64,000 nucleotides of DNA from the NCBI GenBank assembly GCA_000961655.1, contig LADR01000045.1, positions 186,001 through 250,000 of the forward strand, written 5' to 3'. Origin of the DNA: Desulfatitalea sp. BRH_c12 (lineage in GTDB: Bacteria; Desulfobacterota; Desulfobacteria; Desulfobacterales; Desulfosarcinaceae). Positions within the stretch are counted from its first letter, which is position 1, and each line of letters opens with the position of its first letter. Both the position numbers and the translations under genes were made by a program. Positions 35,611 through 54,460 of the stretch are shown here, in pieces. The notes below the pieces were generated by a model. The model ran no database searches. It was not told the DNA's origin and was given only the letters and a program-made list of their open reading frames with translations.

Positions 35611-35989
35611 TACGGCCCAATGGCCCGGCCGGTGGGTGCCATGCAAGCGACGCGTTTTAGCGCGCCTTCGTGCAGCGCTGGGTCAGCGGCCCATACTGGC
35701 TGAGCGACCGTCACATCGCGTTTGTGAGACGCAAATGCGGTTACTCTTCTTTTTATTGCATGGATTGTTGAAAAATCATTGAACCGGTGGTAGCGTCTTC
35801 TCTTTAAAATCTTATCAGAAACATTCATGAAAAAGTATATGTGCCGGAGAAAGTCATGCGGATAGAATCGACAGAATTCCTTCGCTTTCCTCTCTCAACG
35901 TTCGACACTCAACTCCGGCGCAGTAGGCTTAAATAACTTTTTAAACAAATCAGCCAAATCGAGCCTCTTGAGACGGATAGAAAAGACGC
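35611..35989. other. Intergenic region before glycogen synthase gene
   Basis: Contains an inverted copy of the CGCATTTG intergenic motif (CAAATGCGGTTAC, 35732-35744). At 35856-35936 is a 26-codon open frame beginning with ATG, six bases after GGAG, which could be a leader peptide but has no supporting similarity. No consensus promoter was seen. Confidence 0.4.
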
Positions 35990-37498: not shown

Positions 37499-37543
37499 AT
37501 CGCAGGGGCGCAGTGCTTGGGTCGAATAAAGGATTTCAGCCGC

Positions 37544-39577
37544 ATGATGAAAAAGCCGGAACGGCAACGCCTGGAGCGTTTTCTCTCTTCGGATGGCTAT
37601 CTGCATTCCTACCGGGAGGTGATTGCGCGGCGCATCACGCATATCGCGCGCATGGCCCGGCAACTGCCCGGAGATGGTACGCTGGCCGATTTCGCTTCCG
37701 GTCACGAATACTTCGGGCTTCATTGGCAAAATGATCGCTGGGTGCTACGCGAATGGGCACCGTACGCAACCGCTGTTTACCTGATCGGAGACCTGAGCGA
37801 TTGGCAGGTGCGCGAGGAACTGGCACTTACCCGTCAGGACGCCAACGGCACCTGGGAAATCGCGCTTCCGGCCGAACGCCTGCGCCATGCGGATTTATAC
37901 CGTCTGCATGTACGCTGGCCCGGCGGCAGCGGCGATCGCATCCCGGCTTGGGCACGCCGAGTGGTCCAAGACCCGCAAACCCTTATTTTCAATGCCCAGG
38001 TATGGCGCCCGCCAACGCCCTACGCCTGGCGCACGCGCAAGACCAGAAAAAACAAGGAAGCGCCGCTGATCTATGAAGTTCACGTGGGTATGGCTACCGA
38101 AGAACCGCGCGTGGGCAGTTATACCGAGTTCACCCGGCAGATCCTGCCGCGCGTGATCTCAGCAGGCTACAATACCCTGCAGGTGATGGCTGTCCCCGAG
38201 CATCCCTATTACGGCAGCTTCGGATATCATGTGTCCAGTTTTTTCGCGGCCTCTTCACGCTTTGGTACACCTGAAGACCTGAAAGAACTCATCGACAGCG
38301 CCCATGCGGCCGGCATGCGGGTACTTATCGACCTGGTTCACTCGCATGCCGCCAACAACGAAGTGGAAGGCATCAGCCGCCTGGACGGCAGTGATTTCCA
38401 ATACTTTCACGCCGGCGCGCGCGGCCGCCACACGGCCTGGGATTCAAGACTTTTCGACTATGGCAAACCCCAGGTCCTGCACTTTCTGCTGTCCAACTGC
38501 CGTTACTGGCTGGATGAATTCCACGTGGACGGATTCCGTTTCGATGGCATTACCAGCATGCTTTACCTGGATCATGGGCTGGAGAAATCCTTTACTTCCT
38601 ACGACGACTACTTCAATGGCAATGTGGATGAAGACGCACTGTGCTACCTGGCTCTGGCCAACCAGCTGATCCACCAGGTGCGTCCGGATGCGGTCACCAT
38701 CGCCGAAGATGTCAGCGGCATGCCCGGACTGGCGCGGCCCTGGCGCGAAGGCGGCATCGGCTTTGACTTCCGCTTTGCCATGGGCGTTCCCGATCACTGG
38801 ATCAAGCTGACCAAAGATACCCGTGACGAGGATTGGTCGATGAGCAGGTTGTGGTTCGAATTGAACAACCGCCGCTACGATGAACGCACTATCTCCTATG
38901 CCGAATCCCACGATCAGGCCATGGTCGGAGATAAAACCTTGATCTTCCGCTTGATTGACGCGGCGATGTACGACCACATGGCCATTGACGACGACAATCT
39001 GCGCGTGGCACGCGGGATCGCCTTGCACAAAATGATCCGCTTGATCACGCTGGCCACGGCCGGCAACGGCTATTTGAACTTCATGGGCAATGAGTTCGGG
39101 CATCCCGAATGGATCGATTTTCCCAGGCCCGGCAACAATTGGTCGCACCACTATGCCCGCCGCCAATGGGGTTTGGCCGACAATCCCCAACTACGGTACG
39201 GTCAACTGGCTCGCTTTGACAAAGCCATGCTGGATCTGACGCGCGAGCAGCGCGTGCTGATGTCGCCGTCAGCCCGCTTGATATGCGAGCACAACGACCA
39301 AAAAATTATGATTTTTGAAAGGGCCGGTCTGATCTGGGCCTTTAACTTTCACCCGAACGACTCTTTTTCCGATTACCGCTTTCCCGCGCCACCAGGCCAG
39401 TATCGCATCATTCTGGACGCCGACGCGCCGGAATACGGCGGTTTTAACCGCATCGCCCGTGATCTGACGCATTTCACTGTGGCCACCGACCACGCGCCCG
39501 GCAACGCCCAGTATCTGAGCCTTTATCTTCCCAATCGCTCTGCCACAGTATTGAAGCCAACAGAGAACAAGCCCTGA
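37544..39577 (+). CDS. glgB: 1,4-alpha-glucan branching enzyme, eukaryotic-like GH13 subfamily
   Basis: About 677 residues. An N-terminal CBM48 domain (YFGLHWQNDRWVLREWAPYA, YLIGDLSDW) precedes a GH13 barrel with VHVGMATEEPRVGSY, LIDLVHSHAANN, HVDGFRFDGITSM (nucleophile Asp), TIAEDVSG (Glu) and SYAESHDQAMVGDKT, then MGNEFGHPEWIDFPR. These motifs match the type II amylopectin/glycogen branching enzymes (GBE1-like) more than E. coli GlgB. It creates alpha-1,6 branches on the product of GlgA. Start: the ATG at 37544 has AGGA ten bases before it; a TTG nine codons upstream lacks a site. Last gene of the glycogen block. Confidence 0.92.
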   Translation: MMKKPERQRLERFLSSDGYLHSYREVIARRITHIARMARQLPGDGTLADFASGHEYFGLHWQNDRWVLREWAPYATAVYLIGDLSDWQVREELALTRQDANGTWEIALPAERLRHADLYRLHVRWPGGSGDRIPAWARRVVQDPQTLIFNAQVWRPPTPYAWRTRKTRKNKEAPLIYEVHVGMATEEPRVGSYTEFTRQILPRVISAGYNTLQVMAVPEHPYYGSFGYHVSSFFAASSRFGTPEDLKELIDSAHAAGMRVLIDLVHSHAANNEVEGISRLDGSDFQYFHAGARGRHTAWDSRLFDYGKPQVLHFLLSNCRYWLDEFHVDGFRFDGITSMLYLDHGLEKSFTSYDDYFNGNVDEDALCYLALANQLIHQVRPDAVTIAEDVSGMPGLARPWREGGIGFDFRFAMGVPDHWIKLTKDTRDEDWSMSRLWFELNNRRYDERTISYAESHDQAMVGDKTLIFRLIDAAMYDHMAIDDDNLRVARGIALHKMIRLITLATAGNGYLNFMGNEFGHPEWIDFPRPGNNWSHHYARRQWGLADNPQLRYGQLARFDKAMLDLTREQRVLMSPSARLICEHNDQKIMIFERAGLIWAFNFHPNDSFSDYRFPAPPGQYRIILDADAPEYGGFNRIARDLTHFTVATDHAPGNAQYLSLYLPNRSATVLKPTENKP

Positions 39578-39612
39578 AACATGGATCCCTTAAAAAGACA
39601 GTTCGGCTATCC

Positions 39613-39674
39613 AGTTCGCGCCGATGACTGTTGGCGAAGTGTTACGTAACGGATAATGGTGGGCAATGCCCACC
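39613..39674. repeat. Short intergenic repeat and palindrome after glgB
   Basis: GATGACTGTTGGCGAAGTGT (from 39613) resembles a segment at 60532-60541 and following. GGTGGGCAATGCCCACC (39658-39674) is a perfect 8 bp-arm palindrome with a one-base centre. Both are the kind of short dispersed element seen elsewhere in the window. Confidence 0.5.
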
Positions 39675-39786
39675 CTACATCCGGGAAGCTACACCCGAAT
39701 CTCACTTGACCAAAGTGGATAACCAGAAAAGACAATTACCATCACTTGCTTTGGCGCGTGCGTGTATAAATGACGCCCTGGACGGG

Positions 39787-40377
39787 TCAGCTCTTCCGAT
39801 AGATATGGAAAAATCGCATGACTTTCTCGACGTAATCCTGGGTTTCCTTGTATGGCGGGATATTCTTGTAGCGATCCACTGCCGTGGGACCGGCGTTATA
39901 GGCAGCCAACGCCAGGGGCAGCTGATTGTCGAAACGCTCCAGCATGGTTCTCAGGTAACGCGCGCCACCCATGATGTTTTCCCAGGGATCGAACGGATCA
40001 CTGATGTTCAGGTGCGCCAGATTGTCCGGCATGATCTGCATCAAACCCATTGCCCCCTTTTTGGACACGGCGCGCGGATTAAAATAAGACTCTACATGGA
40101 TCAACGCCTTGAGCAGGTGAAAGGACACCTCATTCTGTCTGGCCGCTTCCAGAATGACATCGTCGTACGCGCGGGTATCGGTCCATGCGGGCGGCGGCAA
40201 TGCTTTTTCACGCATATATACCTTGTACTGGTCTGACGTGGGCGTATTGGTAAAATGCAAAACGCCTTCCCGGTCCACATACACATAGATGTCCGCGTAA
40301 ACGGACGATGCGCCAAAAAAGATCATCACAACAAAAAGAAACGCGCACAACCGCTTTCCGACCCGCCCGAGTGCCAT
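39787..40377 (-). CDS. Secreted lytic transglycosylase, SLT family
   Basis: A 196-residue protein: signal peptide (cut near VYADI), a DUF4124-like stretch (IYVYVDREGVLHFTNTP, residues about 30-46), then an SLT goose-lysozyme-like domain with the catalytic Glu96 in LIHVESYFNP, GAMGLMQIMP, GGARYL and LALAAYNAGPTAV. It cleaves peptidoglycan glycan strands in the periplasm, forming 1,6-anhydro-muramoyl ends. All catalytic motifs are present. It is probably monocistronic; it converges with the branching enzyme gene. Confidence 0.9.
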   Translation of the reverse strand: MALGRVGKRLCAFLFVVMIFFGASSVYADIYVYVDREGVLHFTNTPTSDQYKVYMREKALPPPAWTDTRAYDDVILEAARQNEVSFHLLKALIHVESYFNPRAVSKKGAMGLMQIMPDNLAHLNISDPFDPWENIMGGARYLRTMLERFDNQLPLALAAYNAGPTAVDRYKNIPPYKETQDYVEKVMRFFHIYRKS

Positions 40378-40606
40378 CCTATCGCTTCGCCCTTTCTGAT
40401 TCCCCTGGTTTGAAAATGTTAGCGACGTATCTTAAAAGATACCGTATATGACATCCAAATGGCATTTTGGGCCATTTTGGACGCGACATGCAATTAAGCA
40501 ATATCTGTACCTGAACCTCCTGGTCAATCTCGGCGCCCCTCCGTCCCAGTGGGAATGAAATGCAAGTGAAGGGACGAATAGTGCGCGCCACGTTTCCTGA
40601 GCACGC

Positions 40607-41020
40607 TCATTCCAGCATAGGCACGATTTCAACTTCGGTGGACAGGCTTGCCACGCCGCGCACGGTGGCGGCTACCGAACAATATTTTTCGAGCGATAAT
40701 TGGACGGCTTGGGCCAGAGCTTCTTCCGTCAACAAGTTGCCGCTGACACGGTATTTTAAATGGATGCGTTGGTAGGCCCAGGGCGGCGTCGGATCCTGCT
40801 GCCCATCGGCGGTGATTTCAAGCATCGTAAGCGGTTTGCGTTTTTTGATCATGATCTCGAGCACGTCATAGGCTGTGCACGCCGACAAGCCGATGAGCAG
40901 CATCTGCGAGGGGCTGACCCCCCTGGCTGGATCGTCGCCCGAAAGAACGACTGAATGGTTCCTCGAATCGGTCCCCACGAATTGTTTGCCCGTTGTCCAG
41001 CGAACGGTTGTGATCGGCAT
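40607..41020 (-). CDS. OsmC/Ohr-family protein
   Basis: A 137-residue OsmC-fold protein with the two family cysteines, Cys48 (LSACTAYDV) and Cys114 (EKYCSVAAT), which in characterised members reduce organic hydroperoxides. The segment SPSQMLLIGLSAC is typical of the YhfA/OsmC-like branch. A dithiol-dependent peroxidase or thiol-redox role in the cytoplasm is likely. GGAG lies before the ATG. It is separated from the transglycosylase gene by 229 bases with no clear feature, so co-transcription is uncertain. Confidence 0.88.
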   Translation of the reverse strand: MPITTVRWTTGKQFVGTDSRNHSVVLSGDDPARGVSPSQMLLIGLSACTAYDVLEIMIKKRKPLTMLEITADGQQDPTPPWAYQRIHLKYRVSGNLLTEEALAQAVQLSLEKYCSVAATVRGVASLSTEVEIVPMLE

Positions 41021-41570
41021 AAGGTCTCCTTTGAGGGCACTTGATCGGGTTTGGGGTACCTTATAAAGTCATCTTGAAATGAGCAACTTTTTTTTAAAAA
41101 CAGCCCCTTCAACAACCGCTTGTCGAAGTGCCCGGCGTCGGGGTTCCGAACAGACGGACGGATACCGCAAGCGCGTCGAAAAAAGGAACTCCTGTTTCTT
41201 CTTATTATCACGCCGGTCAATCTCATTTAAAAAAATATACTTTATTATTTCGAAATGTTAACCTTGAGATGAGCCGATTTGGAAGTCACAAAGGGTTGAA
41301 ATTCCAAAAAACAGGAACTTACAATTCCGGTGATGATTTAAGCAATTTTGAAACCAACTGAAATAACTAATAATTTTATATGGCACGCCTTTTGTTATGC
41401 AGGCAGCTAAAATGAGGGCGTACGGCGTGCCATTGGTCGCTAAATAGGCGGCCGCGGAGTTGCCAACGTGACTTGACGATTGAGGAGACCGGAACAGTCA
41501 TCTTTGATTCATCCCAGAAGCAAACATCAGCCGGAATAAAAAATTTCTTCCAGGAGGCGTAATAAAAGCG
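41021..41570. other. AT-rich intergenic region upstream of the aminomutase gene
   Basis: A 550-base gap, notably AT-rich from about 41200 to 41400, unlike the flanking genes. It probably holds promoters for osmC and the aminomutase cluster. AGGAGG at 41552-41557 is the ribosome site for the aminomutase gene. No repeat, hairpin or extra gene is convincing. Confidence 0.5.
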
Positions 41571-42872
41571 ATGCATCACAAAGCATGTCGCCCAATCTGT
41601 ATCAAAACAGATATCAAACCCGCGAGTTCGGTGGAGGTCAACGCGGAGGTAGACGATGAACCTCCGAGCCAGCAGGCTTGCTGTCCTGAATCCCCGCAGC
41701 CTGTCAGACAAAGAACCCGCAAGCTGACCATTCAGAGCTTGCCCCCCGACACACCTACCGCCCGAAGCCAGTTCAAGCATTTTTATTACCCGAACATTTC
41801 TGAAAAGCAATGGAACGATTGGCAGTGGCAGATCGCCAACCGCGTTCGCTCGCTGGACCAATTGGCAAAATTCCTGCACCTGTCGCCCGAGGAAAAGATG
41901 GCGGCGCAGGGCTTGCAAACCAAATTGCCGCTGGCGATCACGCCCTACTATCTGAGCCTGCTGGTCGGACATGGTGCCGACTATCCGCTGCGACGAACCG
42001 TCGTGCCGGTCATCGATGAATTTATCAAGATGCCGGGCGAGGATGACGATCCTCTGGGCGAAGAGAACCAAAGCCCGGTTCCCGGGCTGGTCCACCGCTA
42101 TCCGGACCGGGTGTTGTTTTTGACCCTCGATTTTTGTTCTACCTATTGCCGATATTGCACGCGCTCGCGTATGGTCGGACACGGACGGCTTTTTTTCAAC
42201 CGGCGACGGTTGGAAAACGCCTTGGAGTATATCCGCCGCACCCCTACGATTCGCGATGTGCTGCTGTCTGGCGGAGACCCGCTGACCCTGGGCGACGCCC
42301 GCCTGGATTGGCTGCTGACCCGGCTGCGCCAGATCAAGCACGTGGAGATCATCCGCATCGGCACCAAGGTCCCGGCGGTGTTGCCGCAACGCATCACGCC
42401 GCAATTGGTGCGCATGCTGCGGCGTCATCATCCGCTGTGGATGAGCCTGCATTTCACCCACCCGGACGAGTGCACGCCCGAAGCCTACCGGGCCTGTCAG
42501 CGTTTGGCCGATGCAGGCATCCCCCTGGGGTCGCAGACAGTGCTGCTCAGCCGGATCAATGATTCGGTAGAGACCATGCGTTCGCTGATGCATCATCTGC
42601 TCCAAATGCGGGTGCGGCCGTATTACCTGTACCAATGCGATCCTATTTCCGGTTCGGCCCATTTCCGAACCTCCGTGGACAAAGGGCTGGAGATTATCCG
42701 CGGGTTGCGCGGCTTCACCAGCGGCTACGCCATTCCGACGTACGTGATCGATGCGCCGGGCGGCGGCGGCAAAATCCCCCTGACCCCCGATTACTACCAG
42801 GGCCGCGAGGGCAGTGCGGTTGTATTGAAAAACTACGAAGACAAAACGTTTCATTATCCGGACGTATGCTGA
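41571..42872 (+). CDS. Lysine 2,3-aminomutase-like radical SAM enzyme (KamA family)
   Basis: A 433-residue KamA-family protein. The radical SAM motif is Cys189, 193 and 196 (CSTYCRYCTRSR), SAM-binding LLSGGDPLTL follows, and the PLP-binding Lys401 lies in DAPGGGGK. Asp357 (LYQCDPIS) and Asp394 correspond to the two Asp that bind the substrate side-chain amine in clostridial lysine 2,3-aminomutase, so L-lysine to beta-lysine is the most likely reaction (comparison from memory). The first 60 residues are a Cys/Pro-rich extension not needed for the fold. Downstream genes for a YkgJ protein (64 bases) and an ATP-grasp ligase suggest an operon using the product. EpmB-type EF-P modification is less likely because no epmA or efp is adjacent. 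Confidence 0.85.
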   Translation: MHHKACRPICIKTDIKPASSVEVNAEVDDEPPSQQACCPESPQPVRQRTRKLTIQSLPPDTPTARSQFKHFYYPNISEKQWNDWQWQIANRVRSLDQLAKFLHLSPEEKMAAQGLQTKLPLAITPYYLSLLVGHGADYPLRRTVVPVIDEFIKMPGEDDDPLGEENQSPVPGLVHRYPDRVLFLTLDFCSTYCRYCTRSRMVGHGRLFFNRRRLENALEYIRRTPTIRDVLLSGGDPLTLGDARLDWLLTRLRQIKHVEIIRIGTKVPAVLPQRITPQLVRMLRRHHPLWMSLHFTHPDECTPEAYRACQRLADAGIPLGSQTVLLSRINDSVETMRSLMHHLLQMRVRPYYLYQCDPISGSAHFRTSVDKGLEIIRGLRGFTSGYAIPTYVIDAPGGGGKIPLTPDYYQGREGSAVVLKNYEDKTFHYPDVC

Positions 42873-42936
42873 ACAGCCGGACGATGAATGCACCGCAAAT
42901 CCGCTTCGTGAACGCCGCCGGAAGGAGGCGGCCTGT

Positions 42937-43515
42937 ATGACCGCAGCACATGCAACAACAACCGATCCCCACGCCGCGAGCGCTTTGCACCCGGCGCCGG
43001 TCATCGATCATAAGCAACTGTGCAGCGTGTGCGCCCAGCGTGGACGCACATGCTGCCAGGATCACGATATCTATGTGACCTGGGGCGACTGCCGCCGTAT
43101 CTTCGTGCATACTCGGCAGAAAGAATTTTTCGAATACCGCGGCTGCCTCAACAAGGCGTACCTGGAGCAAGACAATGATCCGCTGTGGCGGCAACATGTT
43201 TTCCGCGCCGACGGCAGCCGCCGGGTGCTCAAACACAAGCCCGATGGGGATTGTATGATGCTGACCCCCTCAGGATGCAGTCTCCCGCTGGATGTGCGCC
43301 CCCTGGTTTGCCGACTTTTCCCGCATCTCTACTCGGCCGATGGCATGGCCAAAGAGTGGGACGGCGAGTGTCCGGCAGCACGTAATGCCTCCGCGACCCA
43401 GATCGAACAAGGCATTGCCGGCGTGGAACCCTGTGAAGCCGCGCAATGGCATCAACTGCTTTACGATGAAGTACTGTGGGAAGGGCTGGTCGATGACCAC
43501 TGGATTGATCGGTAA
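42937..43515 (+). CDS. YkgJ-family cysteine-cluster protein
   Basis: A 192-residue protein with the YkgJ-type cysteine pattern: CSVCAQRGRTCCQDHD, CRRIF, RGCLNKAY, GDCMMLTPSGCSLP, RPLVCRLFP and GECPAARN. Such proteins probably bind zinc or an iron-sulfur cluster; biochemical function is not established for the family. AAGGAGG precedes the ATG at a normal distance. It lies between the aminomutase and ATP-grasp genes with short gaps, so it is probably part of the same operon and could be an accessory redox or metal protein for the pathway (inference). Confidence 0.75.
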   Translation: MTAAHATTTDPHAASALHPAPVIDHKQLCSVCAQRGRTCCQDHDIYVTWGDCRRIFVHTRQKEFFEYRGCLNKAYLEQDNDPLWRQHVFRADGSRRVLKHKPDGDCMMLTPSGCSLPLDVRPLVCRLFPHLYSADGMAKEWDGECPAARNASATQIEQGIAGVEPCEAAQWHQLLYDEVLWEGLVDDHWIDR

Positions 43516-43565
43516 CCGTGCCGCGGTGCAAAACGGCCGTGGCTTTCTCCGACGGGATGGGCGAA

Positions 43566-44576
43566 ATGCATATAGCGGTCGTCCATAATGCCATCAGCCC
43601 GGAGAGCACCGCGGATGAGCAGGATGTCTTGGTGCAGGCCGATGCGGTAGAGGCTGCCCTTCGGCAATGCGGGCACGACACGCGCCGTCTCGCCTGCGAT
43701 TTGAACTTGGCGGACGTCCGGCAAGACCTGTCCGAGGATCCGCCCGACCTGGTCTTCAACCTGGTAGAATCGCTCGCAGGCACGGGACGGCTGCTGCATC
43801 TTTTTCCAGGAGTATTGGATGCCCTGCGCATCCCCTACACCGGGGCATCCGCGGAAGCTCTTTTCTTGACCTCCAACAAGATTCTGGCCAAAGGTTGGCT
43901 GGCGGCCGCAAACATGCCGACGCCTGCCTGGGCAGGCCCTTGCGATGGTCGCCGGGTGTGCGATGTACCCCAAACGCTGCTCCGGCCTGAACGCTGGATC
44001 ATCAAGTCGGTCTGGGAGCACGCATCCATCGGCCTGGATGCCAACGCTTTTCTGGACGGCACCCTCACGGAACGCTTGCCGGCTCTGCTGGCGCAACGCG
44101 CTCCCCTGCTGGGCGGGACCTGTTTTGCCGAAGCCTTTATAGAAGGCCGCGAGTTCAACCTTTCCCTGCTGGAGGATGCCGACGGTCCCCGCGTGCTGCC
44201 ACCGGCTGAAATCGTCTTCGAAGGATTCGACGAAAACCAGCCGCGCATCGTGGACTATCGCGCCAAGTGGGATGAGAACGCCTTCGAATATCACCATACC
44301 CCGCGCCGGTTCGATTTCGATCCCGCGGACAAATCCTTGCTCGACCACCTGAAGACGCTGGCGCTGCAATGCTGGCATCTTTTCGGAATCAGCGGTTATG
44401 CACGCGTGGACTTTCGTGTCGATGCCCACAATCGTCCCTGGATTCTGGAGGTCAATGCCAATCCTTGCCTTTCGCCTGACGCAGGTTTCGCCGCGGCGGC
44501 CGCTCAAGCGGGAATGGCGTACCCCCAGGTGATCGCATGCATCGTCCAGGCATGCTCCCGCAGAGGCGTGCTGTAA
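43566..44576 (+). CDS. ATP-grasp ligase related to D-Ala-D-Ala ligase
   Basis: About 336 residues with a D-Ala-D-Ala-ligase-type ATP-grasp fold: N-terminal PDLVFNLVESLAGTGRL, the LDALRIPYTGASAEALFLTSNK substrate/ATP segment, WIIKSVWEHASIGLD, AFIEGREFNLSLL and the metal-binding RVDFRVDAHNRPWILEVNANPCLSP. Such enzymes form an amide between a carboxylate and an amine using ATP. Canonical Ddl genes sit with mur or fts genes; here the neighbours are an aminomutase and YkgJ protein, so a different substrate, perhaps a beta-amino acid, is plausible. The start is uncertain: ATG at 43566 begins at the first strand (MHIAVVHN); ATG at 43557 or GTG at 43518 are alternatives. Confidence 0.75.
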   Translation: MHIAVVHNAISPESTADEQDVLVQADAVEAALRQCGHDTRRLACDLNLADVRQDLSEDPPDLVFNLVESLAGTGRLLHLFPGVLDALRIPYTGASAEALFLTSNKILAKGWLAAANMPTPAWAGPCDGRRVCDVPQTLLRPERWIIKSVWEHASIGLDANAFLDGTLTERLPALLAQRAPLLGGTCFAEAFIEGREFNLSLLEDADGPRVLPPAEIVFEGFDENQPRIVDYRAKWDENAFEYHHTPRRFDFDPADKSLLDHLKTLALQCWHLFGISGYARVDFRVDAHNRPWILEVNANPCLSPDAGFAAAAAQAGMAYPQVIACIVQACSRRGVL

Positions 44577-44611
44577 CGCCACCCATAGCATCGATCCCGC
44601 CTTCCGAAGCG

Positions 44612-44636
44612 CAGGGGGATGTCCAATCACCCCCTG
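44612..44636 (+). terminator. Hairpin after the ATP-grasp gene
   Basis: CAGGGGG and CCCCCTG form a perfect 7 bp stem with an 11-base loop, 36 bases after the ATP-grasp stop codon. No T-run follows, so it may be a weak terminator or an RNA 3'-end stabiliser. It separates the ligase gene from the mobile element. Confidence 0.4.
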
Positions 44637-44777
44637 TGAGACAGTGGGCTCGACACGCAAGACAAGCGCATGTAGTGCCTGACCCGTCTTACAACGGAAC
44701 CTGGCAACGGGCTACGGTGCGGGGTGGCCGTCCGCAAATCTCCTAACGCGGTCGCCTGGGTCGTTATTATCTTGCGG

Positions 44778-45099
44778 CAGGGCAATCCCATGTAAAAACT
44801 CTCTTAAGGATACCCGAATTCGTATACGGGATTGGCACGGAGGAGGTGATCCGGGTGGGTGGTCCGCGCCACGTCAGCCATGAGATTTAGTGAGGCACAA
44901 GGCGTGCGTAGGACATAGGGGCCGCACTGTCTGAGCGCAGCGAGTTTGCGGCCCGTCCGGAGCATGCCTTATTGCCTCACTTAATCGCATGGATGGTGGC
45001 GCGGACCACCCACCCGGATCACCGGGTTTTCAGCACGATAGATATGGCGCCAAGTAAAGACAGCACGCTACGTGCCAAGGCTTACATGCGATTGCCCTG
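44778..45099. mobile_element. MITE-like element, copy 2 (322 bp, with an internal palindrome)
   Basis: The ends CAGGGCAATCCCATGTAAA (44778-44796) and CTTACATGCGATTGCCCTG (45081-45099) match those of the element at 7836-7977. They are flanked by a 10 bp direct repeat TATCTTGCGG (44768-44777 and 45100-45109). The outer parts align with copy 1, but about 180 extra bases are present in the middle. These form a long hairpin whose outer arms are an exact 25 bp inverted repeat (44848-44872 and 44996-45020). No transposase is encoded. Confidence 0.88.
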
Positions 45100-45225
45100 T
45101 ATCTTGCGGTTGAAACGATTGAATTTCAATAGTATACCAGAGCACTTGGCATTGCGGGCCATGCTTGGCACGCAAATACGATCCGCGCTGCTGTGGATCC
45201 AAGAAGGACTGGAGCGTTTTCAACG

Positions 45226-47475
45226 ATGCTGAAAATCAGAAGAATTCATGACGATTTACTACCGATCAATCGGGAAATCCTCAAACAGGTGCAACAGATC
45301 CTGCGCACGCGCTTCAGCCAGGCCTCGGAAGAAGAGATTGAACGCATCGGAGAAAAGCTGCGCAATCCATTCAAGCAACGTTTTCGCGCCATCTTGCTGA
45401 TTGCCGAAAATTTGCGCCGCAAAGTCTCCGGTTTTGCCATGCTGCTGCATGAACCCGAAATCGGTTTTTGCTACCTGGATTGGATCGCTTTGGCCCGCGG
45501 CACCACCGGCGGGGGCATCGGCGGCGCGCTGTACGACAGGGTACGCGGCGAAGCTGCCGCCCTGGAAGCCAAGGGCCTTTATTTCGAAAGTCTGCCCGAT
45601 GACCCCCAGAGTTGCCCCGACCCCACCATCCTCAGGCAAAATCGATCGCGGCTGCGCTTTTACGAACACTATGGCGCGCGCCCTATTATCAATACGGCTT
45701 ACGAAACACCGGTCCATCCCCAGGAAACCTGCATGCCGCATCTGGTCTACGATGCGCTAGACCGGCCGGAACCCTTGCGACCGGCCTTTGCACGCAAAGT
45801 GGTGCGCGCCATCCTCGAACGTAAATATGCAGAATACTGCCCGCCGGAATATGTTGACAAAGTCGTCTCTTCGTTTCGCGACGATCCGGTTCGCCTGCGA
45901 CCGTTGCGCTACGTGAAACCCGAGGCGGTGCAGAGCGTGGTCGCCAACCGCCTGACCGAACAGGTGGCTCTGATCGTCAACGACAAACATGATATTCACC
46001 ACGTGCATGAACGTGGATACGTAGAAGCGCCTGTGCGGGTCAAAAGTATTCTCAGTGCGCTCGAGGGCAGTGGCATGTTCACGATCAGCCAACCGCGCGC
46101 CTTCAGCGAGAAGTATATCACCGCCGTTCACGATGCCGATCTGGTCAACTATCTGCGCCGCGCCTGCGCCGAGATGCCCGAGGGCAAGTCACTCTACCCT
46201 TATATCTTTCCCATCCGCAACAAAACCCGCCCACCCAAGGAGCCTTCGGTTTTGTCGGGATATTACTGCATCGACACCTTCACGCCCATCAACCGCAACG
46301 TCTATCCGGCCGCGCGGCGCGGGGTGGATTGCACCTTGACGGCCGCTGCGGAAATCCTGGCTGGCCGCCGGATCGCCTACGCTCTGGTGCGCCCCCCCGG
46401 TCATCATGCCGAGCGACGGGCATTCGGTGGTTTTTGCTACTTCAACAACAACGCTATCGCAGCCCAATACTTATGCGCCCATGGTCGCGTGGCCATTCTG
46501 GATATCGATTTTCACCACGGCAACGGTCAGCAGGATGCCTTTTACCGACGCTCCGACGTTCTGACGATCTCCATTCACGGCCATCCGCGCTTTGCCTATC
46601 CTTATTTCAGCGGATTTGAAGATGAAATCGGTGAAGGCGAAGGTGAAGGCTTCAACTGGAACCTGCCGCTGCCCGAAGCGGTCGACGGCCCGCACTATCG
46701 CAAAGCGCTGGGAAAAGCGATTCAGCGCATCCACACCTTCAAACCCCATTTCCTGATCGTGGCCCTCGGCGTGGACACCGCCAAAGGCGATCCGACCGGC
46801 ACCTGGCAACTGACCGGCAAAGACTTTGACGCCAACGGCCGCTTGATCGGTGCCATGGGCATGCCCACGCTGGTCGTCCAGGAAGGCGGCTACCGCACCC
46901 GCACGCTGGGGGCCAGCGTATTCAACTTCTTCAAGGGACTGGTGGCCGCCAATACCCGCGCGATCCCGTTTCCCAACGGCACCGGCACTTTGCAAGATTT
47001 TCAATGGCGCCACAAGCTGCAAGCCGAAGACCCCGCACGCATCCGCCAACTGGTGGCTGCCACCGGCTTTTTCAACCCTGAAGAAATCGGTGTGGCCGAA
47101 GAACTGGCCCATGAACGTCTGGCCAAAGGCGACGCCAGCGGCTACTTTTTCCTGATCGCCGAGCACCAGGGCCGCATGGCTGGGTACAGCTGCTATGGTC
47201 CTATCGCCGGCAGCGCCAACAGCTACGACCTATACTGGATCGCCGTGCACCCCGAATTTCAACGTCGCGGCATAGGCCGGCGCATGATGGCCAAAACCGA
47301 ACGCCTCATTCACAAGGCCGGTGGCCGTCGCATCTACGTCGAAACCTCCCAACGCACAGACTACACCAGCACCCGTATCTTTTACGAAAACTGCGGCTAC
47401 CGCCTGGAAGCCCTGTTGGCGGACTTTTACGGGCCAGGCGATGGCAAGGCGATTTATTGCAAGGTTATGACCTGA
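45226..47475 (+). CDS. GNAT-HDAC-GNAT triple-domain protein
   Basis: A 749-residue fusion. Residues about 1-165 resemble a GNAT acetyltransferase (CYLDWIALARGTTGGGIGGALYDRV for the acetyl-CoA loop, LRFYEHYGARPI at its end). Residues about 240-585 are a class II histone-deacetylase/acetylpolyamine-amidohydrolase domain with RPPGHHAERRAFGGFCYFNN (His393/394), zinc ligands Asp428 and His430 in DIDFHHGNG, Asp517 in ALGVDTAKGDP, and QEGGY. Residues about 610-749 are a second GNAT (LYWIAVHPEFQRRGIGRRM, FYENCGYRLEA). The deacetylase site looks intact; the first GNAT is more divergent. One protein could thus add and remove acetyl groups from an amine. It follows the aminomutase/ligase genes past the mobile element, so an acetylated lysine, beta-lysine or polyamine substrate is a reasonable guess. 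Confidence 0.85.
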   Translation: MLKIRRIHDDLLPINREILKQVQQILRTRFSQASEEEIERIGEKLRNPFKQRFRAILLIAENLRRKVSGFAMLLHEPEIGFCYLDWIALARGTTGGGIGGALYDRVRGEAAALEAKGLYFESLPDDPQSCPDPTILRQNRSRLRFYEHYGARPIINTAYETPVHPQETCMPHLVYDALDRPEPLRPAFARKVVRAILERKYAEYCPPEYVDKVVSSFRDDPVRLRPLRYVKPEAVQSVVANRLTEQVALIVNDKHDIHHVHERGYVEAPVRVKSILSALEGSGMFTISQPRAFSEKYITAVHDADLVNYLRRACAEMPEGKSLYPYIFPIRNKTRPPKEPSVLSGYYCIDTFTPINRNVYPAARRGVDCTLTAAAEILAGRRIAYALVRPPGHHAERRAFGGFCYFNNNAIAAQYLCAHGRVAILDIDFHHGNGQQDAFYRRSDVLTISIHGHPRFAYPYFSGFEDEIGEGEGEGFNWNLPLPEAVDGPHYRKALGKAIQRIHTFKPHFLIVALGVDTAKGDPTGTWQLTGKDFDANGRLIGAMGMPTLVVQEGGYRTRTLGASVFNFFKGLVAANTRAIPFPNGTGTLQDFQWRHKLQAEDPARIRQLVAATGFFNPEEIGVAEELAHERLAKGDASGYFFLIAEHQGRMAGYSCYGPIAGSANSYDLYWIAVHPEFQRRGIGRRMMAKTERLIHKAGGRRIYVETSQRTDYTSTRIFYENCGYRLEALLADFYGPGDGKAIYCKVMT

Positions 47476-47711
47476 ATTAAGCACTCAAAGGATGGTCTAT
47501 CGGCACCTGGAAATGTTTGCAGTTCAACTCAGATGTTAAAATTTTTAAACGCTGGAAGACCTGGAGTTGATCAACCACTCAGAAACGGGTACTACCAAAT
47601 AATCTATAGAGGTTCGATCGATACCTTGAATGGCATTATTCGATGCCCCTATCCATTGCCCTTGATCGCCACAGCAATGGACAGGGGTAAAAAAGAGCGC
47701 TCAGAACGTTT

Positions 47712-48053
47712 TTAATTCAATTCTTTGTCTTCAACGGGCGGCTCCCATTGCGCCAGGGAGTCGCGCCCCAATGCATATTCTACAATCTTATTGACCGGTT
47801 CACCGCTATTGTCCACGTAGTACCTGAGGGTCACCACGCTGCCGATTTTAAGATCCACTTCAATTCTCTGACTTGCCGGGTAATAGCTGATGCCATTCCC
47901 ATCCAACTCGATGGCGCCATCCCGAACCGACGTTACTGTCCCTGAGACGAGTTCGGTTTCAATATATATTCCTGCATAGCCATGCAACGGAATCAAGCAC
48001 AGGCAGATAAGCAGAATATAAGAATGGAAGGTAACTTTATTTCGAGAAAACAT
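47712..48053 (-). CDS. Small periplasmic protein at the end of the pilus operon (PilY2-like position)
   Basis: A 113-residue protein with a signal peptide (cut near HGYAG) and a small mature domain containing SGTVTSVRDGAIELDGNGISYYP and VVTLRYYVDNSGE, which looks like a beta-barrel or OB-type fold. AGGAGG precedes the ATG by 11 bases. It starts 49 bases after the PilY1 stop and is read in the same direction. In Pseudomonas aeruginosa the gene after pilY1 is pilY2, encoding a periplasmic protein of about 115 residues; size and position agree, but sequence similarity could not be tested. Confidence 0.65.
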   Translation of the reverse strand: MFSRNKVTFHSYILLICLCLIPLHGYAGIYIETELVSGTVTSVRDGAIELDGNGISYYPASQRIEVDLKIGSVVTLRYYVDNSGEPVNKIVEYALGRDSLAQWEPPVEDKELN

Positions 48054-48102
48054 GATTCTTCTGACCTCCTGAAATAGTAAAGTGGATTACTCCCATGCGA
48101 TC

Positions 48103-51100
48103 TTACGGCTGTTGGCTGTTTCCTTCCCGCCAATAGTAGAGTTCAAGACCCAAGGGGGGGCCTGGGATCTTGAATTCATCACCCGGGTCACCTTCCCCAT
48201 CGGGATCACCCGGGCCGATGATTCTTCCACCCATCATAGCCATGGCACCGGCCTGCCCCTTTCTGGAGATGATGGAAAACCCGGAGGGAAGGCCGAAAAT
48301 GTTGTTGATCTTTTTGTATCGGTCGGTCACATTAAATGTGTAACTATCGTTGCCATCATTATCCGTATTTAAATTAAACGCCGCAGTGCCATCGCTGTAA
48401 TTCAATGAATAGCTGAAACCATTGCCTTGGGGGTTGCATGGATCCTGAATGGATGGCTGATAACTTGTAAAGTAGAGAATACCTGCATAAAGTTCTACTT
48501 TCGACAATATCGCTTCCCCCTCGTGATTGTCCCTGTCGGCGGAAGTGTCGTTGTCGATGGTGGCCCCATACTTGCAGTGGCTGCACGCGGTTGCATCGCC
48601 CTGATCTTCCAGAATTACATACCAGCCTTTGGCATCATTTTCATTGTCCCCGTTTTCAAGAGCCGGTGTTCCTGATGAATTGTACTCGGCGTCATCGGTG
48701 AGGTATCCGCGCAACGTGGCCTTCGTCAGGCCGGTCAATGTTGTGCTCTCGCCCAACTCGTCGCATGACAAGTTGAGCAGGTGATTTTCAGTGTAGGGCG
48801 GTGTCGAAACTTTTACGCTTGCCCCAGTCTCCGTGTTCTTGGCCGTCACGGAAGTATCATCATAAATGGCATAAAATCGGTTGCGGGTTATGGTGTGGGT
48901 AGGATGCTCCCTATCGCCGGTACCTATATACAAACTGGCAATATCATACTGACCACTGAAGGTGGTGTCCTTGAAACCATAATTGCCGGCATCGAAATAG
49001 TCGCCCGCGCCGCCCCATGAGACTGCTGGTGGATAAAAGGTTTTGCGCCCCTGATCGCTGGTGTCGACGCCCTGTTTAAATTGTCCGCTGCCGCTGGTGC
49101 TGCCCGGATTGCCTGAAAAGATAGGGTTGACTTTCCAGCCATTCTCTTTAAGAGAGTAGGTTCCCTCGCTTTCAGCGACCTCGAACTTGTACACCAGTTT
49201 GTAGATATTGGTGTAGATATCCGGCGCGTAGACAGTGTCAAGAACGTTGGTTTTTTTCCCCTCGCGCATCACGCCGGCGTCTTTGTAATAATAGGAGTAG
49301 GTGCTGGATATCAGCGCCGGGGTAGCGGGAAAGCAGAATTTCATCGAACTCAACTTTTGGCTGGCGCCGGTGGTCACGTTAGATGTGCCAAAGGTCACTG
49401 AAAAAGGAAGGACCGCATTGCCTCCCAGCGTCACCGTGTTTTGGGGATTATCGATATCCACTGCGAAAATACCGCGCCCATATTCATTCTTGTCCGGGTT
49501 GTAGCGATCATAGACATCATTATTGTTGATGTCTTGCTCAACATTGGTTTTGCTCCATTCGGCATTGACAATAGTGCCGTTGGCAGCATAGGGGGTGCCA
49601 TTGTTGTCAATATCAAGAAACGGTTCCGGATATGAATCCTCTTCGGGGTCGTACCCTCCGGTAAACACGACAATATCCTTGAAAGTGATCGCACCCGTAG
49701 CGGAATTGAGACCCACGGGAATCGATGCAACCTGCGGTTTGGCCCAGGATTGGACCATTTCGGCATTGCTGTACTGCCACGCTACGTCCCAATTGGCGGA
49801 ATCGCTGTCGGAGACATCCAGACACCAGTAAGATCCACCCCCGCGCCTGAGACCGAAAATAAGGTACTTGGGTTTTTGGTCGCGGCGATACAGGGTAATC
49901 TCGCCGTCCACCATATCCACAAGGGGCGTGGTGGGCAACAATTTCAAATTCGGCAATACATCCGGTGGAATGAAAGCGAACTTTTCACTGCCGTCACTAT
50001 CGTCGAACACATGCAGCATACCGTCATTGGCGCCCACAACGATGTAGCGGGCTTCGAGGACGCTGATATCACTTTCATCATAATAGTCCACCACCACCGG
50101 ACTGGAATGAATGATGCTGCCTAAAGCCCAATCCCTGTAGGCCAGCGGCGCACCTGTTTCCGCGTCCGCTTTGTCGGTGTAACCATACACATAATTGATT
50201 ATTTCGTTTCGTCTCACATCATCGTCCACACCCAACTGGGCGGCGGTGATATTGGCCTGATCAACTTTGGTCATTGTACTGTCCACATACGTGAAAATGG
50301 GGCGCTCATAGAAATTGGTGCCCGCATTGAAAGCAGCCACAACCTGTTCGGTAAGCACCTCGCCCACGCCATCTTCCTTCACGTCATGGCTGCCGTAAAC
50401 GTCCGCGTCATTGGCATCGTTATCGTCTCCCCAGAATGCCGCCGCGTTATCTAAAAATTCACCGGAACTGTTAATGGCTGGGCGGTTTTGCGCATCGTAA
50501 AGCATCCACAGATAGGGGCGGGCCGTGCTGCCGTCGCCCAATTTGTACTTTTTGAGATTGCCGACCCAACTCTGGCTGTCTTGAGGAAGAAAAAGGCCCA
50601 TATAGAGATCGTCGCCATTTTGAATTTTATTGGCCGCATCCACGGAAACCACCGGCGCGGTAAATGAGATGGCTTCCGTCATCTGAAGGCCGATGGCATA
50701 GAATGCGGCCACCAGCTGCTCCCTGTTGCGTGCAGCAATATACATTCCACCCGAGTCCCGGGCGGCATCCTCCAGAAGAGGATGATCCGCGCCAAAGGCG
50801 ATATGGTGGGTCGTCACATTGACATAAGAGTTGGCCGGATCGGCCACCTCGGATTTGTCCATCCAACTGTGCGTGTACAACCAATGGCTGACATCGTCGT
50901 AATAGTTAGGCGGGGTGTTAGTTTTGTACTGAAAGGGGTCAGCCGTCCAGTCGTCCTCGTCCCAATCCTGGAAGGTGACGCCCGCAATACGATTCCAATC
51001 ATCATCGACGGAAGGGAACCCGTCCGTCACTGAGATGATATAGTTTTTGCGGCAGTTAAGATTGTCCAGGATTTGGTTTTTAGCATAGTAGCCTTTTTCA

Positions 51101-52551
51101 AACACATCCTGAAGCGCCTCGCCCATTGGCGTGCCGCCACCAGCAGTCACCTTGTTGATCTCAATGACGACGTTGTTCCGATTGACATCATCGTTGTCAT
51201 TGGGATTGAGCGGGGTCAGAATCTTGGCGCCATCGCCATTGTTGTAATGGGCGAACCCCCAGTTCATCTTGCCATGGAAATCCAGCAGAGCATATTGCAT
51301 GGCTTCTTTGGCACTATCCAGACGCGTCTGCATCTTATAAGAACCACTGTTATCAGCGACTCGAATCTGATCTATCTGAAAACCGGTGCCCTGATTCTGT
51401 TCTCCGCTGAACATTGCAATTTTGACAGTATCGCCGTTTATGGTCACCGACCATCCATCAGACGGTTTGGTGTTGTTGTCATATTGGACTATTTTATTAC
51501 CTCGGCCATCATAGAGGGCTACATAATCGCCAGCATCATAATACCCTGTCCATTTGCTCGTCTTTATGTACTCCTTTGTCGGATTGACGTCAAAAGCGGA
51601 AAAATGCACCTGAATCTGGGAGGCGCCTCCGTGATGGATCGTCTCAATGATGTTGTTAAGCTTCAGATTGTTTGCATAGAGCCCGCTTTCGGGATACTTA
51701 ATGGTTTTACCAAGGGTGGCCCAGTCCTCGGGGGAAGAGAGCAGCACCTGTTCATAGCGCCAGGGTTCATTGGTTTTGCCTGTCGGAACAGATGAATACG
51801 TCAGGTTATAAACCTTTTGCATATTGGCCCAGTTGCCTGTGACAAAAAAATAGATGTCGTTGTCTCCAGACTCGGCTTCATTGAGACTTGCCGGATCGTG
51901 CGTTTCGCCGACGCCCTCATAGCCACTGAAATAGAACCCCGGCGCATCCAGCAACCCCGCAAAACCGTTTTCTATCCGTGTGCCCTCGTAAAGCGTGACC
52001 CAATCATCCAGTTTAATGTCTTGCCCCAAGGGCAGCCGCTCGCCATCCAATAAAATGTAGCCGTTGTCATCGGTGGTGAGGCGTTGTGTCCCGCTGCCGT
52101 CCCATGATAGCGTTCCGGCAGCATCGATCAGGGTGTGCGTATCGACAAGGCTGGGCTCCCAATACCAACCAAGTTTCGGCTTACCTGCGTCACCTGTGAA
52201 GGCCACGGTTTTGCCTTTGATAGTGGCGGTAGACATACCGACAGGTCCCTTCATCAGGTAGACCTTCCTTCGGGTCAGGTGGTCTACAGCAGCAGTGAGA
52301 GTCTTATCCGTTATATGGGCAAGCTTCTCTAAAGAGTCGTACATGACCCCGTAATCCTTACTGGACTCATAGACGCCAAAATCCATACTCCCCGAACTGT
52401 CCATAAGGATATAGCAGTTCTGCTTGGCATTGATCTGGTAGATATCCGTGTCCTTGGCTGTGGCCAGACCGGCAATGCAAACAGCGGCCAAAAAGATACA
52501 AATGCAATACAACGCTTTGGTTTTTGATCCGCGTATATTGAATAAAGACAT
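48103..52551 (-). CDS. pilY1: Type IV pilus tip adhesin/assembly factor PilY1
   Basis: A 1482-residue secreted protein. After a signal peptide (cut near GLATAKD) a von Willebrand A-like region begins at once with the metal site DSSGS (Asp51). The second half contains the PilC/PilY1 beta-propeller: EARYIVVGANDGMLHVFDD, EKFAFIPPDVLPNL, YLIFGLRRGGGSYWCLDVSD, DIVVFTGGYD and SLYIGTGDREHP. A Ca2+-binding-like loop rich in Asp/Asn lies at EQDINNNDVYDRYNPDKNE. PilY1 sits at the pilus tip and controls extension, retraction and adhesion. GGAGG precedes the ATG. It is downstream of four minor-pilin genes in one operon, as in Pseudomonas and Desulfobacterota. Confidence 0.93.
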   Translation of the reverse strand: MSLFNIRGSKTKALYCICIFLAAVCIAGLATAKDTDIYQINAKQNCYILMDSSGSMDFGVYESSKDYGVMYDSLEKLAHITDKTLTAAVDHLTRRKVYLMKGPVGMSTATIKGKTVAFTGDAGKPKLGWYWEPSLVDTHTLIDAAGTLSWDGSGTQRLTTDDNGYILLDGERLPLGQDIKLDDWVTLYEGTRIENGFAGLLDAPGFYFSGYEGVGETHDPASLNEAESGDNDIYFFVTGNWANMQKVYNLTYSSVPTGKTNEPWRYEQVLLSSPEDWATLGKTIKYPESGLYANNLKLNNIIETIHHGGASQIQVHFSAFDVNPTKEYIKTSKWTGYYDAGDYVALYDGRGNKIVQYDNNTKPSDGWSVTINGDTVKIAMFSGEQNQGTGFQIDQIRVADNSGSYKMQTRLDSAKEAMQYALLDFHGKMNWGFAHYNNGDGAKILTPLNPNDNDDVNRNNVVIEINKVTAGGGTPMGEALQDVFEKGYYAKNQILDNLNCRKNYIISVTDGFPSVDDDWNRIAGVTFQDWDEDDWTADPFQYKTNTPPNYYDDVSHWLYTHSWMDKSEVADPANSYVNVTTHHIAFGADHPLLEDAARDSGGMYIAARNREQLVAAFYAIGLQMTEAISFTAPVVSVDAANKIQNGDDLYMGLFLPQDSQSWVGNLKKYKLGDGSTARPYLWMLYDAQNRPAINSSGEFLDNAAAFWGDDNDANDADVYGSHDVKEDGVGEVLTEQVVAAFNAGTNFYERPIFTYVDSTMTKVDQANITAAQLGVDDDVRRNEIINYVYGYTDKADAETGAPLAYRDWALGSIIHSSPVVVDYYDESDISVLEARYIVVGANDGMLHVFDDSDGSEKFAFIPPDVLPNLKLLPTTPLVDMVDGEITLYRRDQKPKYLIFGLRRGGGSYWCLDVSDSDSANWDVAWQYSNAEMVQSWAKPQVASIPVGLNSATGAITFKDIVVFTGGYDPEEDSYPEPFLDIDNNGTPYAANGTIVNAEWSKTNVEQDINNNDVYDRYNPDKNEYGRGIFAVDIDNPQNTVTLGGNAVLPFSVTFGTSNVTTGASQKLSSMKFCFPATPALISSTYSYYYKDAGVMREGKKTNVLDTVYAPDIYTNIYKLVYKFEVAESEGTYSLKENGWKVNPIFSGNPGSTSGSGQFKQGVDTSDQGRKTFYPPAVSWGGAGDYFDAGNYGFKDTTFSGQYDIASLYIGTGDREHPTHTITRNRFYAIYDDTSVTAKNTETGASVKVSTPPYTENHLLNLSCDELGESTTLTGLTKATLRGYLTDDAEYNSSGTPALENGDNENDAKGWYVILEDQGDATACSHCKYGATIDNDTSADRDNHEGEAILSKVELYAGILYFTSYQPSIQDPCNPQGNGFSYSLNYSDGTAAFNLNTDNDGNDSYTFNVTDRYKKINNIFGLPSGFSIISRKGQAGAMAMMGGRIIGPGDPDGEGDPGDEFKIPGPPLGLELYYWREGNSQQP

Positions 52552-52568
52552 ACTACCTCCGATTTGCT

Positions 52569-53168
52569 TTACTTAAGACCGATTTTCATTCCACCAAGTT
52601 CGATCGCGACCTGCTTTACACCGTTAACTCTGAATTTATAAGCAGCGACACTCCCGGCATTATATCCCTTTAGCGCTTTGTCGCTCGCGCCCAGATAAGT
52701 GACCAGGTAGGCATAGTCAAAGCGGTCGTCGGTAGCATCCTGCAAGAGATTCTCATGAGGCCAGTATCTTTTGTCGACCACCTGTTCGTCGCGTGTCAGA
52801 TCGTTGAAGGCTTTCGGGAAAGTACCGGAAATTTTGATGTCACCGCCGGGATCGTAATCTGCTGAGGGCGGCACGAGAATTTGATCAAACTGCTCGGGGT
52901 TTGCGATTTCATACCACTCATAGGCCCCGGTTCTGGCAAAGCCAACTTTGCTGGCATTGATTTGAGCGCCGCCCTCGGATGTATTGAGATCTTCTATCCA
53001 TTGCTGCTCGTTGCCGGAAATTTTGATTTCGGTGACTGATGTCTGGGCCGCCATAATGCCAAGGGTCGTTAAAACAACGAGCACCAACAAACAAACAATC
53101 AGCGCCGATCCGCTCTCATCGTAAGGAAAATATTGATCTGGTATTCTTTTCGGATGATATTTGGTCAT
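52569..53168 (-). CDS. pilX: PilX-like minor pilin
   Basis: A 199-residue protein with the PilX N-terminal pattern DESGSALIVCLLVLVVLTTLGIMAAQT followed by TEIKISGNEQQW, typical of the PilX_N family; it lacks the usual Glu5 GFTLIE motif. One membrane helix near residues 20-42 and a periplasmic globular part. Minor pilins of this kind form the pilus initiation complex with PilV, PilW, FimT/FimU and PilY1. It begins 11 bases after the PilV stop and ends 17 bases before PilY1. Confidence 0.85.
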   Translation of the reverse strand: MTKYHPKRIPDQYFPYDESGSALIVCLLVLVVLTTLGIMAAQTSVTEIKISGNEQQWIEDLNTSEGGAQINASKVGFARTGAYEWYEIANPEQFDQILVPPSADYDPGGDIKISGTFPKAFNDLTRDEQVVDKRYWPHENLLQDATDDRFDYAYLVTYLGASDKALKGYNAGSVAAYKFRVNGVKQVAIELGGMKIGLK

Positions 53169-53179
53169 ATTCAGTTTTC

Positions 53180-53713: not shown

Positions 53714-53714
53714 C

Positions 53715-54455: not shown

Positions 54456-54460
54456 AATGG

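Follow-up and report, generated by a model that had tools for sequence, protein, structure and literature searches.

A conserved aminomutase-ligase-acetyltransferase cluster, possibly directing synthesis of an acetylated beta-lysyl peptide, in Desulfatitalea sp. BRH_c12 and other bacteria

The locus in Desulfatitalea sp. BRH_c12

The stretch of DNA analysed here, called the window, comprises 64,000 nucleotides from the 6.0-Mb genome of Desulfatitalea sp. BRH_c12 (genome G000 of our survey; the window lies on contig C74). Between positions 41571 and 47475 it bears genes for a KamA-type aminomutase, a small YkgJ-like cysteine protein, an ATP-grasp ligase related to D-Ala-D-Ala ligase (Ddl), and a fusion protein in which a deacetylase domain is flanked by acetyltransferase-like domains. 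The aminomutase and the ligase were found to form the core of a gene cluster conserved in many genomes, whose products might assemble an acetylated beta-lysyl peptide. The named relatives closest to it here are Desulfobacteraceae SURF_4 (L103) and three Desulfatitalea loci (L104, L107 and L110). Desulfatitalea alkaliphila (L110) and Desulfosarcina cetonica (L112) are carriers that have been cultured. The features of the locus are as follows.

41571..42872, strand +: KamA-type radical S-adenosylmethionine (SAM), pyridoxal phosphate (PLP)-dependent 2,3-aminomutase of 433 residues (Pfam, structure match, tree and residues), with CxxxCxxC at 189/193/196, Asp357, Asp394 and Lys401
42937..43515, strand +: YkgJ/FliB-like CxxCxxCC protein of 192 residues, an optional cluster member (8 invariant cysteines)
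43516..43565, strand +: 50-bp spacer, read as a deletion scar, at the site that ATP-grasp 2 (about 925 bp) occupies in close relatives
43566..44576 (alternative GTG start at 43518), strand +: ATP-grasp 1, a Ddl-type amide ligase (Pfam, fold)
44778..45099, no strand assigned: palindromic repeat resembling a miniature inverted-repeat transposable element (MITE), in the interval between the ligase and acetyltransferase genes; outer arms 44778-44795/45082-45099, perfect inner arms of 28 nt at 44845-44872/44996-45023
45226..47475, strand +: fusion protein of 749 residues, GNAT-like / acetylpolyamine amidohydrolase of histone deacetylase (HDAC) type / GNAT
45226..45795, strand +: its N-terminal GNAT-like domain, residues 1-190 (predicted secondary structure only)
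46021..46935, strand +: its HDAC / acetylpolyamine amidohydrolase domain (HH, DxDxH, D and Tyr found)
47026..47472, strand +: its C-terminal GNAT (Pfam), an acetyltransferase present in most loci and fused to ATP-grasp 1 in many HDAC-less relatives

The open reading frame (ORF) of ATP-grasp 1 extends from 43518 to 44576, with the start methionine at 43566 being the conserved one, and that of the fusion protein from 45193 to 47475, with its conserved start at 45226. Purifying selection on the cluster genes was shown by comparison with L103, in which the ratio of non-synonymous to synonymous substitution (dN/dS) was lowest for the fusion protein (0.08), followed by KamA (0.10), the YkgJ-like protein (0.13) and the ligase (0.15), at high dS values of 0.87-1.91.

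Co-occurrence and gene order

One set of 96 genomes from the order was searched twice, once for KamA and once for ATP-grasp 1. KamA scored above 500 bits in 37 of them, the next KamA reaching 414, and ATP-grasp 1 was detected in all 37 genomes of this KamA clade; neither gene was found in 58 of the 59 others (Fisher p = 7e-26, from counts tallied by hand). In the remaining one, G045, ATP-grasp 1 was present (309 bits), and KamA was represented merely by weaker matches, broken up and located on other contigs. Several of the ligase matches were irregular, being divergent in G025 (171 bits), in two pieces in G076 and G035, and short at a contig end in G087 (146 bits) and G091 (92 bits); the last was counted by its position beside KamA, because distant ATP-grasps reach as much as 77 bits in genomes that lack the cluster. 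Both genes lay on the same contig in 33 of the 37 genomes, and in G011 and G032 contig ends intervene. In a second sample, of 198 genomes from the phylum, whose hits shared with the order sample were G000, G010 and G023, KamA exceeded 600 bits in 33 genomes, ATP-grasp 1 (E <= 1e-60) accompanied it in 32 of these, and the two were on the same contig in 31. Co-occurrence in other genomes had been set beforehand, in the initial annotation of this DNA, as the test on which the idea of a cluster should stand or fall, and the genes do co-occur (37/37 and 32/33).

The cluster is real and conserved, and it is present under several phylum labels. KamA and ATP-grasp genes occur in records titled as Desulfobacterota groups, Planctomycetota, KSB1, Acidobacteria and Nitrospinota, nearly all of these records being metagenome-assembled genomes, whose taxon labels may err. 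A Kiritimatiellae record (L158) contained ATP-grasp 1 and GNAT only. We also observed a locus filed under Patescibacteria (L146) whose KamA is, over the part available, 81% identical to that of the window; its taxon label is probably a binning error.

Gene order was compared in 40 genome regions, including one that surrounds the C82 ligase described below, and in 80 named loci; in the latter, presence of ATP-grasp 1 is by construction, because this protein was the query with which they were sought. De-duplication left 106 loci with ATP-grasp 1, the window included, of which 103 exceeded 200 bits; L084, L091 and L092, with lower ATP-grasp 1 scores, were dropped from the layout counts. Throughout the 103 loci the usual order is KamA, optional YkgJ, ATP-grasp 2, ATP-grasp 1, optional GNAT-deacetylase, and GNAT. 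When counted in the 84 loci with at least 3.3 kb of upstream sequence, KamA was present in 79, ATP-grasp 2 in 78 and YkgJ in 18, and in the 73 loci with at least 3.6 kb downstream a GNAT of the C-terminal type was found in 66 and an HDAC in 29. Thus, of the four genes initially proposed as a set, the pair of KamA and ligase recurs, and the YkgJ-like protein and the deacetylase are optional. Matches of ATP-grasp 2 and ATP-grasp 1 lie a median of 32 bp apart (93 pairs). Fusions are frequent: ATP-grasp 1 and GNAT form a single open frame in 17 of the 73 loci (L065 has such a fusion), and HDAC and GNAT do so in 23, these two being separate in 6 (frame breaks may explain some of the latter); a separate GNAT without HDAC occurs in 20.

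Among the other recurring ORF families of the 106 loci, none was present in more than 9. The commonest, found in 9 loci, is by eye a sigma-54-type response regulator, and those inspected among the next ones, also assigned by eye, resemble ordinary genes: Fpg, PhoU, a phosphate permease, a flavin adenine dinucleotide (FAD) protein, an ABC ATPase, a CBS protein and Lon. Two unusual arrangements were seen. L235 is permuted, its GNAT match preceding the GNAT-like and HDAC matches. In L230, L231 and L232, which belong to one family, KamA adjoins one ATP-grasp, which is divergent; a gene resembling ATP-grasp 2 lies about 4 kb off, and a GNAT match is absent within the stretch examined.

The proteins of the cluster and their nearest relatives

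KamA matches the Pfam families LAM_C and Radical_SAM, and aligns with the solved lysine 2,3-aminomutase 2a5h at 440 bits. Asp357, Asp394, Lys401 and the cysteines 189, 193 and 196 are invariant in all 84 cluster KamAs; we take the two aspartates to bind the side-chain amine of lysine, Lys401 to be the PLP lysine and the cysteines to be those of the SAM motif. The residues named in the initial annotation (Asp357, Asp394 and Lys401) are thus there, and far beyond the window. Nevertheless, the protein scores below the curated AblA cut-off of TIGR03820 (478.9 vs. 525.4), as do the KamAs of L103 (472.5) and L180 (485.8), with three AblA-type references at 612.8-645.2; its match stops at position 358 of the 417 in the AblA model, leaving the C-terminal part of the model uncovered. 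Scores were also under the cut-offs of the models for EpmB (244.9, cut-off 369.3), glutamate 2,3-aminomutase (TIGR04368; 425.8, cut-off 650) and arginine aminomutase (381.9, cut-off 600). A tree of 73 rows was built with 43 of the 84 cluster KamAs (18 chosen and 25 random) and 8 AblA rows; the KamA of L085, which has a stop within the matched stretch, was left out of both the tree and the residue counts. A branch with support 98/97 separates the 43 cluster KamAs, together with a KamA from a Thioflavicoccus plasmid, from all 8 AblA rows, and the 43 by themselves have support of 90/93. EpmB of Escherichia coli falls in another group, on a very long branch which makes its placement unsure. Identities of the enzyme as one for elongation factor P (EF-P) modification, or as a glutamate or arginine aminomutase, find no support in the model scores or the tree, and the warning of the initial annotation that KamA might group with EF-P function did not come true; it stands apart from AblA as well. 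That the product of KamA is beta-lysine is suggested by the conserved residues.

The Thioflavicoccus KamA, which has a long branch, adjoins another Ddl-like ligase. At this locus (L224, Thioflavicoccus mobilis plasmid) an ornithine-cyclodeaminase homologue and SbnA are also present, and it may be a different amino-acid peptide cluster.

ATP-grasp 1, initially called a Ddl-type ligase, kept this assignment: it matches Pfam Dala_Dala_lig_C (66.9 bits), and its predicted model (pLDDT 86.0) superposes on the Ddl-fold structure 8evx with TM scores of 0.71/0.81. It shares with Ddl the fold, the Pfam domain and the aligned motif region, but it scores below the NCBIfam cut-off for D-Ala-D-Ala ligase (115.2 vs. 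243). The SHSLVP stretch of Ddl, which lies near the second D-Ala, is replaced by PDAGFA.

The usual second ligase, ATP-grasp 2, lay beyond the view of the initial annotation, as it is missing from the window. In L103 to L107 it sits between the genes for the YkgJ-like protein and ATP-grasp 1, and L110 has the same arrangement without YkgJ, whereas the window has 50 bp at this site. We read this spacer as a probable deletion scar, and the window as a natural variant that would have lost its second ligase. Five further loci are without ATP-grasp 2 (L077, L098, L101, L168 and L175), and in the last four of these KamA is missing as well. L077, from genome G070, has the layout KamA-YkgJ-ATP-grasp 1-GNAT. 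A moved copy of ATP-grasp 2 was considered at G000:C82:122242-123168; this protein shares 28% identity with the first ATP-grasp 2 row, its neighbours look unrelated, and it scored 173.7 bits against a profile built without it. It was rejected as an orthologue, and is possible as a distant substitute. The C82 ligase (L063:9519-10619) is itself a further Ddl-type ATP-grasp (103.8 bits).

The small cysteine protein is a weak match to the CxxCxxCC family (PF03692), at 20.6 bits against a gathering threshold of 23, and its relative in L082 passes with 24.8; all eight of its cysteines recur unchanged across the 15 sequences that were aligned. FliB, a bearer of such a cysteine motif, methylates lysines of flagellin by means of a [4Fe-4S] cluster (PMC8598068). 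The two have in common a PF03692-kind motif and eight conserved cysteines, but the motif given there for FliB is CX4CX3CC (PMC8598068), and that of the window protein is CX2CX6CC, in a small protein adjoining KamA.

The fusion protein contains the Pfam histone-deacetylase domain (257.8 bits, cut-off 27.9) and a C-terminal GNAT, and the mean pLDDT of its model is 74.2. The HH, DxDxH and Tyr stretches of the deacetylase are invariant in 16 aligned rows; these, with a further D, are presumably the zinc-site residues. The solved acetylpolyamine amidohydrolases (APAHs) are the top structure matches of this domain and are 36-38% identical to it. In distinction to APAH, the deacetylase of the cluster is flanked by GNAT-like and GNAT domains and is tied to the cluster. 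The closest solved kin of the C-terminal GNAT is 2r7h (TM 0.96, normalised to the 2r7h chain length), and the AblB family model did not assign it to AblB. As to the two acetyltransferase domains that were initially proposed, the C-terminal one and the deacetylase are established by Pfam, and the N-terminal one is half shown, because predicted secondary structure is what makes it appear GNAT-like.

The feature between the ligase and fusion genes, initially described as a mobile element, is indeed repeated, and its identity is corrected here to a palindromic MITE-like repeat of about 320 bp. Scoring of 40 out of 282 candidates placed it at no fewer than 40 sites in the genome, among them the window copy and many incomplete ones, and some copies are 93-96% identical across about 200 bp.

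Elsewhere in the window, the minus strand at 48103-54551 encodes a large protein that matches VWA weakly and which we take to be PilY1-like, and then PilX, an N-methylation pilin and PilW; this is a type IV minor pilin operon. At 35990-39577 on the plus strand, genes of starch/glycogen-synthase-like and alpha-amylase/branching type stand in tandem.

A possible beta-lysine peptide pathway and its alternatives

In the light of these findings, we propose that the cluster is a widespread route, independent of non-ribosomal peptide synthetases (NRPS), in which beta-lysine is made, ligated to one or two amino acids, acetylated and optionally deacetylated. KamA would convert L-lysine to beta-lysine. 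A di- or tripeptide would be formed by one or two Ddl-type ATP-grasps, which would turn a carboxylate into its acyl phosphate and link beta-lysine with a different amino acid or with a second beta-lysine. An amine might be acetylated by the GNAT fused or adjacent to the first ligase, whether to cap it or, by blocking the epsilon-amine, to steer the coupling. In some lineages the acetylpolyamine-amidohydrolase domain could strip the acetyl group, for deblocking or turnover, and the YkgJ-like protein, with its FliB-related motif, may add a further modification, possibly N-methylation. Formation of beta-lysine would come first, followed by acetylation or coupling, and then by the optional deacetylation; the version in the window would use one of the two ligases only. 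We hold this account, drawn from protein similarity and gene order, to be about evenly balanced between right and wrong. If it holds, the product is most likely an intracellular acetylated beta-lysyl peptide, possibly serving by analogy as a compatible solute or osmolyte. The initial interpretation is partly supported on the whole, and its suggestion that the beta-lysine product differs from N-epsilon-acetyl-beta-lysine fits.

Individual steps have parallels in other systems. In N-acetylglutaminylglutamine amide (NAGGN) synthesis, Ngg acetylates one glutamine and couples a second (PMC8070244); acetylation and amide-bond formation in a single protein of this AsnO/Ngg dipeptide osmolyte route recall the ATP-grasp 1-GNAT fusions, although NAGGN begins with glutamine and the present cluster combines a beta-lysine-type aminomutase with Ddl-type ligases. 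In another report, N6 modification by a GNAT was proposed as a block of the side-chain amine favouring dipeptide coupling (PMC2922099), and in E-64 synthesis pseudodipeptides are made by ATP-grasp enzymes in an NRPS-free manner (PMC12568646). AblA is treated as an osmolyte gene in two further papers (PMC9337991, PMC3543383). Literature searches aimed at the cluster, and others at FliB and NAGGN, found no description of it among the matches listed, which consisted of titles and beginnings of abstracts, so that a printed account may exist.

Several observations weigh against the proposed pathway. Sequence does not reveal which acceptor and donor the ligases use, and Pfam gives no GNAT match for the N-terminal domain of the fusion protein. 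KamA is missing upstream in 5 of the 84 loci and GNAT is absent downstream in 7 of the 73. In G018 the ligase lies inside another contig and KamA is absent across 7.6 kb upstream of it; in G058 the ligase is absent across 7 kb downstream of KamA; and in G275 (L234) KamA and ATP-grasp 2 are present and ATP-grasp 1 is absent in the following 2.8 kb. Since the YkgJ-like protein and the deacetylase are optional, the four genes first noted are not the core, and as the window has no ATP-grasp 2, the pathway there may differ or be decaying. The osmolyte role stays an analogy, because no riboswitch pointing to osmotic control was found: a scan of window positions 35000-50000 gave none above threshold, and one of 20 of the 30 KamA loci (including L033, the window's own) gave only a cobalamin riboswitch in L038, taken as unrelated.

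One alternative is that KamA and the C-terminal GNAT make N-epsilon-acetyl-beta-lysine, which the deacetylase recycles, the ligases having a side function; this would be an independent counterpart of AblA/AblB. Both lysine-binding aspartates are kept in KamA, the HDAC domain is nearest to acetylpolyamine amidohydrolases, whose substrates resemble acetyl-beta-lysine, and the AblB model (TIGR03827) had 0 matches in the window genome. The likeness to AblA/AblB, of which we found ablA-ablB pairs in L219, L221 and L222, consists in a lysine 2,3-aminomutase-type enzyme adjoining an acetyltransferase. However, the cluster adds one or two ATP-grasps and, as optional members, a deacetylase and a CxxCxxCC protein, its KamA lies outside the AblA rows of the tree and under the AblA cut-off, and its GNAT is not called AblB. 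The pairing of KamA with the ligase in 37 of 37 genomes and the ligase-GNAT fusion in 17 of 73 loci also speak against this alternative. AblB was found in 12 of the 96 genomes of the order, and 3 of these are among the 37 with the cluster, so the two pathways are not mutually exclusive. We regard such a plain osmolyte route as unlikely. A substrate other than lysine, such as acylated lysine, ornithine or arginine, would yield a product that is not based on beta-lysine; the separate clade of KamA and the uncovered C-terminal part of the AblA model favour it, but both aspartates are invariant in 84 of 84 enzymes and the glutamate and arginine aminomutase scores are far under their cut-offs, which makes this quite improbable.

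It might also be imagined that beta-lysine or a beta-lysyl peptide is ligated to a protein, a lipid or a wall precursor and reversibly acetylated there. EpmA and EpmB attach beta-lysine to EF-P, Ddl-type ligases supply wall precursors, and HDAC and GNAT could form a reversible switch. Against this, no candidate carrier family extends beyond 9 of the 106 loci, the ligases are of the Ddl type, which joins free amino acids, and not of the RimK type, and KamA scores below the EpmB cut-off; tagging of a macromolecule seems to us rather unlikely. To a similar degree we doubt that loss of ATP-grasp 2 and insertion of the MITE-like repeat left a non-functional remnant in the window genome. L103-L107 and L110 retain the ligase where the window has 50 bp, and the repeat separates the ligase from the GNAT-HDAC gene, but the remaining frames are open, G070 (L077) has the same layout without ATP-grasp 2, and dN/dS against L103 is low (0.08-0.15), a comparison in which dS is high and the divergence may mostly predate the loss.

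Returning to the proposed beta-lysine peptide pathway, a wider claim, more doubtful than the pathway itself, is possible: that it represents a hitherto undescribed metabolite class present in several phyla, an NRPS-free beta-lysine peptide built by an aminomutase and twin Ddl-type ligases, with reversible acetylation in one GNAT-HDAC-GNAT enzyme as a cap or protection and, in some lineages, FliB-like iron-sulfur modification. If this were true, many sediment and anaerobic bacteria would share a conserved route to a beta-amino-acid peptide, with ligases accepting beta-lysine. It would bear on the question of whether sulfate reducers, syntrophs and planctomycetes contain a solute overlooked by metabolomics. 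The ATP-grasp-GNAT and GNAT-HDAC-GNAT fusions would make the logic of such a pathway, derived here from sequence alone, testable.

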